A DNA stretch of 36,690 bases from a virus. The notes under the pieces were generated by a model, which saw only the letters and a list, made by a program, of their open reading frames with translations, ran no database searches and was not told the DNA's origin. Numbering within the stretch: position 1 is the first letter of the stretch; each line of letters starts with the position of its first letter. The translations under genes were made by a program, and so were the position numbers. Of this stretch, positions 26,621-29,934 are shown piece by piece. The stretch covers positions 1-36,690 of IMG/VR virus record IMGVR_UViG_3300044855_000259; one strand, written 5' to 3'.

Positions 26621-27393
26621 CTCGCGGACTCCGCCAGTCGACTGCCTTCGTAGTCCTTGTGCACCATCCCCAGGGTTTTGTTGCCGACGACGTGAGGCTG
26701 GACCCACGTGTATTTCCCCGGCGCGTACTGGCGAGGATGGCCGCGCCGCAGGTGCACCCGTGGGCTGTCGTGGGTGCCGCCCAGCGCTTCGCCGGCTTCG
26801 GAGCGCGACAAGTGAAGTGTCCAGTAGGAAAACAGCGGTTTCTTGCCGCGCTTGACGCGGGCGCGATTTAAACGGTCCGCCGGCCTGGTTTGTTTCTGGG
26901 TCACATTGCCGCAGTGCATTGCGGCGACGAACTTTAACGCCGCGTAGTGAAGCACCACGGCTTCGCGAAGATCGACAACGCCTAGCGCGGCCGTCGGTCG
27001 CTTGGAAAGCGTTGCGTCATCCAATTGCCAGGTGCCTCGGCACTCGAGACGGCCTAGGTACTTGCGAAACATCCAGGCGACGATGCCTAGCTCATCATCG
27101 TCGTGGAGCAGCAAACACAACAGGAGAGGGCCGGCCACTTCCTGAAACTGACATTCGAACCAGCACGTCTTGTAAGGCAGGCGCTGAAATTCTCTTGGGA
27201 GCTGATCGATCCGGTCGCGTTCCGTCTTGTTGTGAAACCAGCCTTGGAGGTCCCCCATCCAAAAGCATTGGGCATCGCGCGCAATGTGTCGAAACACCTC
27301 AAGGGCTTGTCTAGACGTTTCTGGCGAAACGCTTTCTGGCAGACGCCACTTAAGCTCGAGATCATCGGAGAGAAACTGGTGCAAATGATTCAT
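26617..27393 (-). CDS. Conserved phage protein with RRGHPRQ motif, 258 aa
   Basis: The N-terminal ~130 residues contain aromatic, Cys/Trp-rich segments (CFWMGDLQGWFHN, CWFECQF). The C-terminal part holds HDSPRVHLRRGHPRQYAPGKYTWVQPHVVG and MVHKDYEG, a pattern shared by many phage and prophage proteins of unknown function. GC across 27061-27360 is about 55%, lower than the neighbours, which suggests a separate origin. It overlaps genes on both sides (ATGA-type). Confidence 0.82.
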   Translation of the reverse strand: MNHLHQFLSDDLELKWRLPESVSPETSRQALEVFRHIARDAQCFWMGDLQGWFHNKTERDRIDQLPREFQRLPYKTCWFECQFQEVAGPLLLCLLLHDDDELGIVAWMFRKYLGRLECRGTWQLDDATLSKRPTAALGVVDLREAVVLHYAALKFVAAMHCGNVTQKQTRPADRLNRARVKRGKKPLFSYWTLHLSRSEAGEALGGTHDSPRVHLRRGHPRQYAPGKYTWVQPHVVGNKTLGMVHKDYEGSRLAESAR

Positions 27394-27545
27394 CGCTTCG
27401 CCTCTGAGTTGAACGCCCCGAGCGCCAGCATCGCGCTGGCCATCTGCTGCACCTGGTGGGGACTCAGCGTCGCGAGCACCGCGTTCAGCGCTGCCCGATC
27501 CTCGGCGGCCGAAACGGCCTCTTGTTCAAGGGGGGTGTTGTTCAT
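27390..27545 (-). CDS. Small helical early protein, 51 aa
   Basis: Start at 27545 (MNNTPLEQEAVSAAEDRAALNAVLATLSPHQVQQMASAMLALGA). Helical and mildly acidic, no membrane helix. It overlaps the next gene (ATGA) and lies 4 bases after the lipoprotein stop. The short length and coupling suggest a regulator or adaptor, but no family was recognised. Confidence 0.65.
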   Translation of the reverse strand: MNNTPLEQEAVSAAEDRAALNAVLATLSPHQVQQMASAMLALGAFNSEAKR

Positions 27546-27549
27546 CGGC

Positions 27550-27696
27550 TCACCACGGCATCGGCGAGGGAATGCGCGGCCGGTAGATCTCGCACTGCGG
27601 ATCGGTCGGCTGGCAAATGGACGAGCTGGGCGGGGGGCTATTGCGGCCGGACGAGCAACCAGACAACAGCAGGAACAGGGCAATCAGGAACGGCAT
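27550..27696 (-). CDS. Small phage lipoprotein, first gene of leftward operon, 48 aa
   Basis: Signal peptide and lipobox MPFLIALFLLLSGC (Cys14), then a short Pro/Ser-rich mature part with one further Cys pair (SSSICQPTDPQCEIY). A strong GAGGAGGT site lies about 6 bases before the ATG. It is the first gene after PL, so it should be made early after infection or induction. Early-expressed lipoproteins often block receptors or superinfecting phage; this is inference. Confidence 0.75.
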   Translation of the reverse strand: MPFLIALFLLLSGCSSGRNSPPPSSSICQPTDPQCEIYRPRIPSPMPW

Positions 27697-27806
27697 GGAC
27701 ACCTCCTCGAGAGATGTCGCCCTCACCCCCCTCACCGGAAGAGGTCACCGGCGGGCCGGTTCTCGGCGGGGAGGAGTGTTGCCTACCCGGCCCGGGTGAG
27801 GGCGAC
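27697..27806 (-). promoter_or_regulatory. Structured leader of the PL transcript (12-bp inverted repeat)
   Basis: The predicted PL start is about 27806. The first 12 transcribed bases (GTCGCCCTCACC) pair perfectly with the complement at 27716-27727, about 20 bases before the lipoprotein start, enclosing 67 bases. Smaller hairpins lie inside (for example ACCGG-CGGG-CCGGT at 27747-27760). A put-like antitermination RNA, as in HK022, or a translation-control element are the main options; neither is proven. Confidence 0.6.
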
Positions 27807-27812
27807 GGGAAA

Positions 27813-27841
27813 ATACTAGCCATGCTAATAGATTGAGTCAA
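27813..27841 (-). promoter_or_regulatory. Promoter PL for the leftward early operon
   Basis: On the minus strand: -35 TTGACT (27836-27841), 17-base spacer, -10 TAGTAT (27813-27818). This is close to the sigma70 consensus. Two operator copies flank and overlap it, so repression by the CI-like protein is expected. Start point about 27806. Confidence 0.85.
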
Positions 27842-27852
27842 TAGCAATGCTA
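27817..27852. promoter_or_regulatory. OL operators (two copies)
   Basis: TAGCCATGCTA at 27817-27827 lies in the PL spacer and -10 overlap; TAGCAATGCTA at 27842-27852 abuts the -35. Start-to-start distance is 25 bp. The same 11-bp pattern appears three times at OR, so both control regions should bind the same repressor. Confidence 0.85.
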
Positions 27853-27879
27853 GTGCGCCACGCAAAAAAAATGGGCAGG

Positions 27880-28365
27880 TCAGCGCGTAGGAAGTGTGAC
27901 GATGACTTTCTTACGTTCCCCGGCCGCAACGGTAACAGGGGCAATGGCGACCCCGCCGGTGCGTTGGACGGAGACCCCAGTGGCGTAGCTCCACTGGACG
28001 TTGCAGGTGACGTAGTAGCTGCCGGCGGGAAGGTTGGAAAACTCGAACGCGCCGAAGCCGTCGCCGGTGGTAGAGCGGATGTACTTCTTCAATCCCTCCG
28101 GCATGCTGTCTCTGACGTACACCTTGTCGAGTAGGGCGTCGTAAGCGCGATCGGTGTAGGTGCCTTTGGGCCAGAGCTGGACGGGTTCGCCGGCGCAGTA
28201 CTTCACGTCGCCGGCCATCGTCTTGGCAAACGCCTGGCCGAACAGGGATGCGGTGCCAGGCGCGCTGGCCCATGCGTATTCGCTTTCCCGATAGTGCTGC
28301 CCCAGTTCGACGACCGGTGTGCAGCCGGCGGTGGCAAGAATTGCCAGCAGTGCGGCGGCCCTCAC
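27880..28365 (-). CDS. Lipoprotein co-transcribed with the repressor (lysogenic conversion candidate), 161 aa
   Basis: GTG start at 28365 overlaps the repressor stop (GTGA), so it is translated from the repressor mRNA. The N-terminus MRAAALLAILATAGC is a signal peptide with a lipobox Cys15; the -3 residue (Thr) is less usual. The mature part includes a domain with SYYVTCNVQWSYATGVS and GERKKVIVTLP, like the carboxypeptidase regulatory-like (Ig-like) fold of surface proteins. Expressed in lysogens, it could block receptors (superinfection exclusion) or change the envelope. That role is inference from context; the lipoprotein call is sequence-based. Confidence 0.82.
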   Translation of the reverse strand: MRAAALLAILATAGCTPVVELGQHYRESEYAWASAPGTASLFGQAFAKTMAGDVKYCAGEPVQLWPKGTYTDRAYDALLDKVYVRDSMPEGLKKYIRSTTGDGFGAFEFSNLPAGSYYVTCNVQWSYATGVSVQRTGGVAIAPVTVAAGERKKVIVTLPTR

Positions 28366-28832
28366 TTCCCCTCGCTTTCGTCCGCCTCGCGCCGGCGCTT
28401 GAGATCTTCGGTGATGCGAGCGATCCAGCGCGAGTAACTGGCGGCCTTGTCCTCGGCCATCATGTGCTCGGAGCGTTCGAACTTGTACTGGATGAAGTCC
28501 AGCATCTGCTGGGCCTCGTTGATTGGCATCGACTCGACGATGTCTTCGAACAGATCCGCCGGGCGTCGCTGGGTCGGCGGAAGGTCTTCCGCCAAGGTCG
28601 GTGAGAATTCGGAAACATCACACGACAAACCTCGGGCAAACCGAACTGCGGCCCGCAGGTTTAACGGAATGTAGCCATTGAGGTACTGCCAGACGAGTGC
28701 CTGCGATCCGATGCCAAATCGCGCACCGAACTTCTCCTGCGTCTCCGGTCCGGCTGCCTCAAACAGCGCTTTTAAGCGAACAGCATCCTGTTTTTGCCAG
28801 TCTTCCAAAGGCTTACGACGAGTCTTATCCAT
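28362..28832 (-). CDS. CI-like repressor without peptidase domain, 156 aa
   Basis: Maintains lysogeny by binding OL and OR. Residues ~10-75 form an XRE-type helix-turn-helix domain (TQEKFGARFGIGSQALVWQYLNGYIPLNLRAAVRFARGLSC), with FSPTLAED following, the same opening used by repressors that normally carry an S24 peptidase tail. Here the tail is only ~75 residues of helical sequence with no Ala-Gly cleavage site or Ser/Lys dyad. I chose the ATG at 28832; longer frames would start within the operator region. It is divergent from the cro-like gene. RecA-driven self-cleavage is therefore unlikely. Confidence 0.88.
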   Translation of the reverse strand: MDKTRRKPLEDWQKQDAVRLKALFEAAGPETQEKFGARFGIGSQALVWQYLNGYIPLNLRAAVRFARGLSCDVSEFSPTLAEDLPPTQRRPADLFEDIVESMPINEAQQMLDFIQYKFERSEHMMAEDKAASYSRWIARITEDLKRRREADESEGK

Positions 28833-28842
28833 TGGGAAAACT

Positions 28843-28848
28843 GTACTA
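28843..28848 (-). promoter_or_regulatory. Possible PRM -10 for the repressor gene
   Basis: Minus-strand TAGTAC (28843-28848) lies about 11 bases before the repressor ATG at 28832. Seventeen bases upstream no good -35 is seen (AGTGGA), which fits a weak promoter needing activation by repressor on the adjacent operator. The transcript would start 4-5 bases before the ATG, with no Shine-Dalgarno site. Confidence 0.5.
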
Positions 28849-28906
28849 GCGTCCCTATAGATTGATCCACTAGGGACGCTATTGCGGGCGGCAAGTAGCA
28901 TTGCTA
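28847..28906. promoter_or_regulatory. OR operators (three copies)
   Basis: TAGCGTCCCTA (28847-28857), TAGGGACGCTA (28871-28881, exact reverse complement of the first) and TAGCATTGCTA (28896-28906). Start-to-start spacings are 24 and 25 bp. The third overlaps the -10 of PR, the first overlaps the -10 of PRM. Confidence 0.88.
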
Positions 28907-28910
28907 GTAT
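28882..28910 (+). promoter_or_regulatory. Promoter PR for the cro-like gene
   Basis: TTGCGG (28882-28887), 17-base spacer, TAGTAT (28905-28910), the same -10 as PL. The start point should be near 28916-28918, one to three bases before the ATG at 28919, giving a practically leaderless mRNA. Confidence 0.82.
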
Positions 28911-28918
28911 TGATCTCC

Positions 28919-29152
28919 ATGAACCTGTCTGAATACCTTCGAAGTCACGAGCTGACGCAACGACAGTTCGCCGACCGCATGGGTGTCACGCCCGGCATGG
29001 TCTGGCACTGGCTCAACGGGGCGTCCCGGATAACTGCTGAGCGTGCATGCCAGATCGAGGCGGTAACGGATGGTGCTGTGAAGCGCCATGAGCTGCGGCC
29101 AGATCTGTTCGATCCGCCCGCCCAGGCCCTGGCAGAGGAGGGCGCGGCTTGA
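28919..29152 (+). CDS. Cro/YdaS-like DNA-binding protein, 77 aa
   Basis: Competes with the repressor and favours lytic growth. Helix-turn-helix pattern LSEYLRSHELTQRQFADRMGVTPGMVWHWLNGASRITAERACQIEAVTDGAVKRHELRPDLFD is that of the YdaS family, whose members serve as Cro in many phages (HELRPDLF is diagnostic). I selected ATG 28919 over the upstream TTG at 28901, because the latter lies inside the -10 box. No Shine-Dalgarno site is present. The stop overlaps the TTG of a longer reading of the next gene. Confidence 0.88.
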   Translation: MNLSEYLRSHELTQRQFADRMGVTPGMVWHWLNGASRITAERACQIEAVTDGAVKRHELRPDLFDPPAQALAEEGAA

Positions 29153-29169
29153 ACGGCAACGGAGCGCAA

Positions 29170-29391
29170 ATGACAGAACGCCCGCAGGACCTCCCCCGTC
29201 AGTTCGTCGAGTGGACTCATGAGCGACCGGTCCGGCCGGCGAACGATGTCTCGATGACGGCATACATGCCCGTGGATCAAGGCCGGTCGTACTACCTCGT
29301 CGGAGAGCCGGCGGAGCGGCTGGACGTCACGTCGATTGCGGATGTGTTCCAGCGGCTGGTCTGGTCTGTACGACGCTGGCCCAGTGCCTGA
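29170..29391 (+). CDS. Hypothetical protein after cro, 73 aa
   Basis: ATG at 29170 has GGAG six bases ahead; a TTG at 29149 overlapping the cro stop would add seven residues. Product MTERPQDLPRQFVEWTHERPVRPANDVSM... is soluble and carries no recognised motif. It stands where lambda carries cII, but no CII-type helix-turn-helix is evident. Its last 65 bases lie over the convergent minus-strand gene. Confidence 0.68.
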   Translation: MTERPQDLPRQFVEWTHERPVRPANDVSMTAYMPVDQGRSYYLVGEPAERLDVTSIADVFQRLVWSVRRWPSA

Positions 29392-29566
29392 GTTTCTCGA
29401 ACGCCGAGTGCTCGATGTCCCGGAGGTCGAAGCTTTCCTTCGGGACTCGCACCGTGAACTGCGCGGATTCGTGATCCGAGATCCGGTGGTGAATCGACAC
29501 AAGCCATTCGCCGGCCAGTGGCGCGACGGTGATCGACACATTGTTCGGAGTTGCGAAAGGTTCCAT
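29327..29566 (-). CDS. Antisense small gene between cro and replication genes, 79 aa
   Basis: Start at 29566 is preceded by AGGAG at a good distance. The protein (MEPFATPNNVSITVAPLAGEWLVSIHHRISDHES...) reads like a genuine folded beta/alpha protein with no low-complexity bias, unlike the shadow frames nearby. It is convergent with the 29170 gene, overlapping it by 65 bases, and points against the PR transcript. No clear promoter was found for it. Function unknown. Confidence 0.65.
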   Translation of the reverse strand: MEPFATPNNVSITVAPLAGEWLVSIHHRISDHESAQFTVRVPKESFDLRDIEHSAFEKLRHWASVVQTRPAAGTHPQST

Positions 29567-29727
29567 GGATGGCTCCTGAGGTGACTGCACAGTCGAACGC
29601 TGCGGGCGGCAGCGACTGCCAGTGTAAATCCTCGGGAGCGTCCACCCGTCTCCTCCCACCGGCGCTCCGGCGCCGGCTTTGCGGTGTCAGTGCCTGCGCC
29701 GCGTTTTCTATTCGCTGAGGTTCTGCC
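29567..29727. other. Non-coding gap before the RHH-like gene
   Basis: No coding frame that I can support. It holds the Shine-Dalgarno site of the antisense gene near its left end and a GC-rich hairpin at 29659-29680. Confidence 0.6.
29659..29680 (+). terminator. Candidate terminator tR-like hairpin
   Basis: CCGGCGC (29659-29665), loop TCCG, GCGCCGG (29670-29676), then CTTT. The stem is strong but the T-run is only three. It lies on the PR transcript between cro-proximal genes and the replication genes, where a tR1-type terminator is common. Confidence 0.5.
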
Positions 29728-29934
29728 GTGTCCCTCGAACGCAAGGATTTGCGGTTGAAGCTGCATCCCGACGTGCACGCCGGCCTGGACGTGCTGGCGG
29801 ACGTCGACGGCCTGCAGCTCGCCGAGCTGGCGGAGCAGATGATTGAACGTGCCGTGCGTGAACGAATTCATGCAGCCACTGTAATTGCCGAGCGCGCAGG
29901 TCGCTTGGGAAAGGCCGGGAGTGGCCGGGAGTGA
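29728..29934 (+). CDS. Small conserved phage protein, ribbon-helix-helix-like, 68 aa
   Basis: GTG start at 29728, GAGG upstream. The N-terminus MSLERKDLRLKLHPDVHAGLDVLADVDGLQLAELAEQMIERAV fits a ribbon-helix-helix pattern (strand, then two helices), as in Arc/MetJ-type DNA binders, and a family of this form recurs ahead of phage replication genes. Its last codons (GRLGKAGSGRE) are spelled by the first copies of the 10-bp CCGGGA iterons. It may bind those iterons; that is inference. Confidence 0.78.
   Translation: MSLERKDLRLKLHPDVHAGLDVLADVDGLQLAELAEQMIERAVRERIHAATVIAERAGRLGKAGSGRE

Follow-up and report, generated by a model that had tools for sequence, protein, structure and literature searches.

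A probable lambda-type immunity switch on TAGC operators, and a phage repressor family with apparently exchanged tails

The 36,690-bp viral contig analysed here (the window, which is the entire IMG/VR record IMGVR_UViG_3300044855_000259) carries five short motifs that most likely serve as control sites in the lambda-like lysis/lysogeny switch of a temperate phage. We read the region around them as an immunity region with a lambda-type switch, in which a repressor would act on 17-bp operators at PL, at PR and in a shared OR (probability about 0.9). The anatomy of the promoters and operators, the homology and the conservation can be taken as established at the level of sequence. Looping between OL and OR is possible, being compatible with their distance of about 1 kb, although the evidence does not require it. 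The switch is real and of lambda type, with modest novelty; the part that looks undescribed is a family of repressors that swap tails while the operator code stays constant.

Operators and promoters of the switch

An earlier note on this DNA had listed five 11-bp near-palindromes, starting at 27817, 27842, 28847, 28871 and 28896, in two clusters about 1 kb apart with 24–25 bp between sites. All five were found there, with centre-to-centre distances of 25, 1005, 24 and 25 bp. The count of the motif in the rest of the genome, which the note had proposed as a check, also came out in its favour: TAG-N5-CTA occurs five times in the record, each time at one of these sites, against 0.6 expected (300 first-order Markov simulations; mean 0.6, maximum 3, at most two per 1.1 kb). 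Since the DNA analysed is the complete record, the motif has no further copies in the sequence examined. The full operator is 17 bp long, with the consensus YAnTAGCnnnGCTAnTR, and has the 11-mer as its core. Position 2 of this 17-mer lies outside the noted 11-mer, and A occupies it in nine of the ten half-sites in the record (P ~3e-5 under local composition). Among 270 half-sites taken from related loci, where the position was not selected for, the share with A is 89%. Lambda operators have the same length and likewise a conserved A at position 2. The core at 28847–28857 is the exact reverse complement of that at 28871–28881, and the two sites nearest the repressor gene deviate slightly from the family consensus (TAGGGACGCTA).

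The sites are laid out on the promoters. PL (TTGACT-N17-TAGTAT, minus strand, running from 27841 to 27813) is the only sigma70-like match in 27300–29800, and PR (TTGCGG-N17-TAGTAT, plus strand) lies at 28882–28910 with its -10 at 28905–28910. Both are built alike, one operator adjoining the -35 and the next covering two bases of the -10. At PL, the second OL operator (27839–27855, core 27842–27852, minus strand) abuts the -35, and the one nearest the PL start (27814–27830, core 27817–27827, minus strand) overlaps the -10 and has a counterpart in the same place in relatives. At PR, the middle operator, equivalent to OR2 (28868–28884, core 28871–28881, no strand assigned), abuts the -35, and the operator nearest cro, equivalent to OR1 (28893–28909, core 28896–28906, plus strand), overlaps the -10. 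The earlier description of this last site as covering the PR -10 holds as an overlap, but one of only two bases (28896–28906 against 28905–28910). The operator nearest the repressor gene, equivalent to OR3 (28844–28860, core 28847–28857, minus strand), overlaps the predicted -10 of PRM (TAGTAC, 28843–28848), a weak promoter without a good -35. This operator lies at -25 from the repressor ATG, where most relatives have -21 to -26, and the three OR sites together stand at -74, -49 and -25 from the repressor start.

The cro ATG follows the PR -10 by 8 nt and the repressor ATG follows the PRM -10 by 10 nt, so that both mRNA leaders are predicted to be only a few nucleotides long. Among 53 distinct loci, cro starts 6–7 nt past the PR -10 in 40, and the repressor starts 6–7 nt past the nearest PRM -10 candidate in 23; at such distances the transcripts of both regulators would have no leader in these relatives. 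The PL leader (27716–27806, minus strand) contains a 13-bp perfect stem, GTCGCCCTCACCC ... GGGTGAGGGCGAC (-60.4 kcal/mol, z -2.8), which possibly acts as an attenuator or in antitermination. In 24 relatives the PL leader has no counterpart of this stem, and the idea of a structured PL leader common to the group was dropped. Beyond the operators, PL (27830–27841) and the PRM region (28858–28870) have CAATCTAT between the sites and TTTTCCC downstream in common, as if one had been derived by duplication of the other. No tRNA or Rfam elements were found in the 36,690-bp record.

Repressor, Cro and the proposed mechanism

The repressor gene (28362–28832, minus strand) encodes 156 residues, as reported before, and comprises a lambda-CI-type N-terminal domain (about residues 1–84) and a three-helix tail. 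Residues 4–84 match lambda CI (phmmer E 2e-7, 1lmb/1rio), and a Foldseek search with the AlphaFold model (pLDDT 88) returned lambda repressor-operator complexes as top matches to the N-terminal domain (37% identity, 1.6 Å). The repressor is of lambda CI type in this domain, and its full length is not. An S24 peptidase/oligomerisation domain with its Ser-Lys dyad is absent from the 156 residues, and the 72-residue tail is instead confidently modelled as three helices (91–101, 104–121 and 127–155). The tail belongs to no Pfam family, has no match in the phage collection when searched alone, and gave no convincing match in the Foldseek search of the model, in which only the N-terminal matches were usable. 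Single-sequence searches of viral and genome contigs retrieved no close full-length relatives of the repressor, and relatives sought through the VapE-like replication protein were likewise not found. The earlier label of an unusual repressor is apt for a lambda-CI N-terminal domain without S24, but less so for the protein's general type, because short non-cleavable lambdoid repressors are known (PMC3121763).

The cro-like gene (28919–29152, plus strand) encodes a 77-residue protein, again of the length given before, of the YdaS/P22-Cro type (Pfam YdaS_toxin, 55 bits against a cut-off of 30), and its PDB matches are Cro-like proteins. The recognition helices of Cro and repressor are similar across loci (for example GVSQGLIYQWLTG / GSQGMVWQYLNG).

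Judging by homology, repressor dimers would bind the 17-bp operators through a lambda-CI-type helix-turn-helix. With one operator at the -35 and another over the -10, occupancy of the paired sites would block RNA polymerase at both PL and PR. The middle OR site is common to PR and the weak divergent PRM, and the repressor may activate PRM from there, while binding of the repressor-proximal operator over the PRM -10 would probably limit its own synthesis. Cro, with a recognition helix similar to the repressor's, is probably its competitor for these operators. A repressor without the self-cleaving S24 domain could not be induced by the RecA self-cleavage route of lambda; an antirepressor or host proteolysis is more likely, and a Gifsy-like antirepressor (PMC3121763) would be our first guess. 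No antirepressor was identified in the 36,690-bp record, in which unannotated small genes remain, and the LexA-like motif CTGT-N8-ACAG, with one mismatch allowed, occurs there 11 times against 10.6 expected, a count to be read knowing that the motif of the host may differ.

The same operators beside homologous repressors in other phages

We searched viral contigs for two operators 23–26 bp apart followed by GTA, a pattern that uses no protein information, and obtained 35 loci, in 19 of which the retrieved stretch encodes a repressor matching the present N-terminal domain, mostly at 42–54% identity. With the operator motif, such switches can be located in unannotated raw sequence. The converse search, by alignment of N-terminal domains alone, led to 74 loci (57 viral and 17 from genomes) that were not picked by their operators, although operator-selected loci had seeded the alignment and the two sets overlap in some contigs. 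Exact TAGCN3GCTA occurs 168 times in these 74 protein-chosen loci against 4.3 expected, mostly near -71, -46 and -21 from the repressor ATG and in a distant pair. A 17-bp matrix derived from the relatives was scanned over 61 sources, this record included, and gave 241 sites where shuffled sequence gave 14, with a spacing of 24–26 bp in 62 of 75 adjacent OR pairs and 45 of 57 OL pairs, and with an OL cluster present in 46 of the 61 sources. The distance between OL and OR in relatives, about 0.8 to 6 kb, varies with the number of genes in between.

That the repeats are a product of chance, or a mobile or other repeat unrelated to the repressor, has in its favour only the shortness of the core. 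Their frequency and position statistics speak against this explanation, and the way they recur, at fixed positions in phages that are independent, refutes it, so that we regard it as practically excluded. The lambda-like operators proposed earlier are, by the same token, strongly supported, both by the promoter geometry and by the same sites beside homologous repressors in dozens of phages. That recurrence of motif and 3+2 layout also makes the layout ordinary: the set of two and three sites singled out by the earlier note is present, but it is not in itself unusual when compared with N15 and phiKO2 (PMC4488713) or with 933W, which has no OL3 (PMC5977221).

Named hosts of the family are Cupriavidus, Janthinobacterium, Herminiimonas, Alcaligenes, Achromobacter, Pandoraea, Burkholderia, Mitsuaria, Variovorax and one Aquidulcibacter MAG. 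About ten protein-selected members have no recognisable operators, several of them with a start or context suggesting something other than an intact immunity region. One repressor, of 395 aa (L052), has an additional HTH domain before the lambda-type domain and an S24 domain after it. Two loci (L094 and L096) combine the recognition helix QSAVGNF with operators of the type TATCAGCGGCGCTGATG, nearer to the lambda operator than to TAGC, and are possibly a natural bridge between the two operator codes. A rule that makes operator base 4 depend on residue 45 of the recognition helix fits these two loci (QSAVGNF, TATCAGC) but fails for L097 and L106, and was discarded.

Probable tail exchange on a constant operator grid

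The S24 domain of lambda is the source of its cooperativity, looping and SOS self-cleavage. In the present family some members have it and others do not: of 66 distinct N-terminal domains, 39 stand in S24 proteins and 27 in proteins without S24, a status assigned from the Ser motif and reading of the sequences (a Pfam scan of 16 short proteins found no S24). Parsimony on a tree of the N-terminal domains counts 13 changes of S24 state, of which at least three are forced by well-supported branches, the tree being drawn from a short alignment with many forks left without resolution. Many tails of the S24-less members are mutually dissimilar. The operator grid is found with both kinds of protein. 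Of the 35 loci with S24, 17 have three OR sites and 23 an OL cluster; for the 26 loci without S24 the numbers are 14 and 23. The 24–26 bp spacing is equal for both. These data point, with somewhat better than even confidence on our part, to a widespread and apparently undescribed repressor family, mainly of Burkholderiales phages and prophages among the named records, in which a lambda-CI-type N-terminal domain, TAGC-N3-GCTA operators and a 3+2 grid are constant and the C-terminal part is repeatedly swapped between S24 and unrelated short helical tails. If this is true, immunity specificity and mode of induction evolve as separate modules. The family offers a natural comparison between switches that use one operator code and an almost identical grid, with and without an S24 domain, from which one could learn which features of the lambda layout cooperativity and looping need and which follow from promoter geometry.

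Two accounts of the spacing and the two clusters have to be weighed within the lambda-type reading. In the first, which we hold to be an evenly balanced proposition, the operators are real at PL and PR and the clusters act independently, with neither looping nor tail-mediated cooperativity, and the 24–25 bp are set by the 17-bp promoter spacer and not by protein contact. The spacer already explains the spacing at PL and PR: it follows the -35/-10 geometry in this record and in the relatives, and it is the same for repressors with and without S24. The wide range of OL–OR distances (~0.8 to 6 kb) points the same way, as does the lambdoid phage 933W, in which binding is not cooperative and OL3 is missing (PMC3317979, PMC5977221). 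Less expected under independence are the third OR site at PRM, which keeps 24–25 bp without a promoter-imposed partner, and the extra OL site of the Cupriavidus type, whose 35-bp distance suggests more than promoter blocking; both are nonetheless compatible with it. In the second account, which appears the more doubtful of the two, the arrangement is a true lambda-like OL/OR system in which repressor oligomers bridge the clusters by looping and the three-helix tail is an oligomerisation module replacing S24. The two clusters are phased, lie 1 kb apart and have the repressor operon between them; this, the separate OL pair kept in 23 of 26 S24-less loci, and the confident prediction of a helical tail all agree with such bridging. 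Formation of tetramers or octamers by the repressor is, however, hypothetical, and the tails of its S24-less relatives are so unlike that a common bridging function would have arisen repeatedly.

In the Cupriavidus type, a third OL site at 35 bp from the other two is usual; it was seen only with the S24 repressor of 330–334 aa (L053–L055, L064, L107 and L110–L112). The middle OR site is perfect in the S24-less loci L075–L077, L083–L085, L118 and L121, whereas in S24 loci it usually has one broken half-site, as if cooperativity compensated for it; the pattern is inconsistent among the S24-less clades. A general requirement of S24-less repressors for a stronger middle site was rejected, as it scores ~21–22 in two S24-less clades but low in others.

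Relation to known switches

Like the lambda CI/Cro switch, the present region combines a repressor whose N-terminal domain is homologous to that of CI with 17-bp operators that carry A at position 2. In both, three OR sites spaced 24–25 bp lie where the repressor and cro genes diverge, a second cluster lies at PL, and operators overlap the -35 and -10. The present region differs in its TAGC core, in having two OL sites where lambda has three, in the absence of the S24 C-terminal domain, in its YdaS-type Cro, in a cro mRNA predicted to be near-leaderless, and in clusters 1 kb apart as against ~2.3 kb. The immB regions of N15 and phiKO2 have three OR and two OL operators, and in PY54 leaderless cI and cro mRNAs were found by experiment (PMC4488713). 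With these linear plasmid prophages our phage compares in layout (N15, phiKO2) and in mRNA starts (PY54; predicted here), but not in operator sequences. Stx phage 933W is a lambdoid switch that also has three OR sites and lacks OL3 (PMC3317979, PMC5977221), with a different operator specificity.

The Gifsy repressors GfoR and GftR are short, non-cleavable and lambdoid, and are served by LexA-controlled antirepressors (PMC3121763). They are likened to the present protein by their shortness (136 aa in Gifsy-1/-2 of LT2) and the missing self-cleavage motif; in contrast, neither an antirepressor nor an enrichment of LexA boxes was found in the 36,690-bp record, with the same caveat about the LexA motif of the host. 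Cryptic prophage CP-933P has in PaaR2 a ~15-kDa CI analogue, with YdaS as Cro and leaderless regulator mRNA (PMC8630535). It shares with our phage the pairing of a short CI analogue with a YdaS-type Cro and equally spaced palindromes, but has four sites with the consensus GTTTAGTAA, and sequence search did not detect PaaR2 as a relative of the 156-aa repressor. The 3+2 operators, short non-cleavable lambdoid repressors, the combination of a short CI analogue with YdaS, and leaderless cI/cro are all already known. For the TAGC operator family or its tail exchange, we found no published description in the open-licence literature.

Neighbouring genes

Between the repressor and PL lies a gene for a 161-aa protein with a lipoprotein-like start (27880–28365, minus strand; PHROG 14789). 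Its start codon overlaps the repressor stop, and it is probably co-transcribed with the repressor from PRM. A role in lysogenic conversion or superinfection exclusion is possible. Pseudomonas phage Fyn8 has a homologue of this gene at the same place behind an S24 repressor. Downstream of cro, 29728–29934 (plus strand) encodes a 68-aa protein that matches a PHROG transcriptional regulator (phrog_7146, E 8e-11) and is possibly a second lytic regulator.
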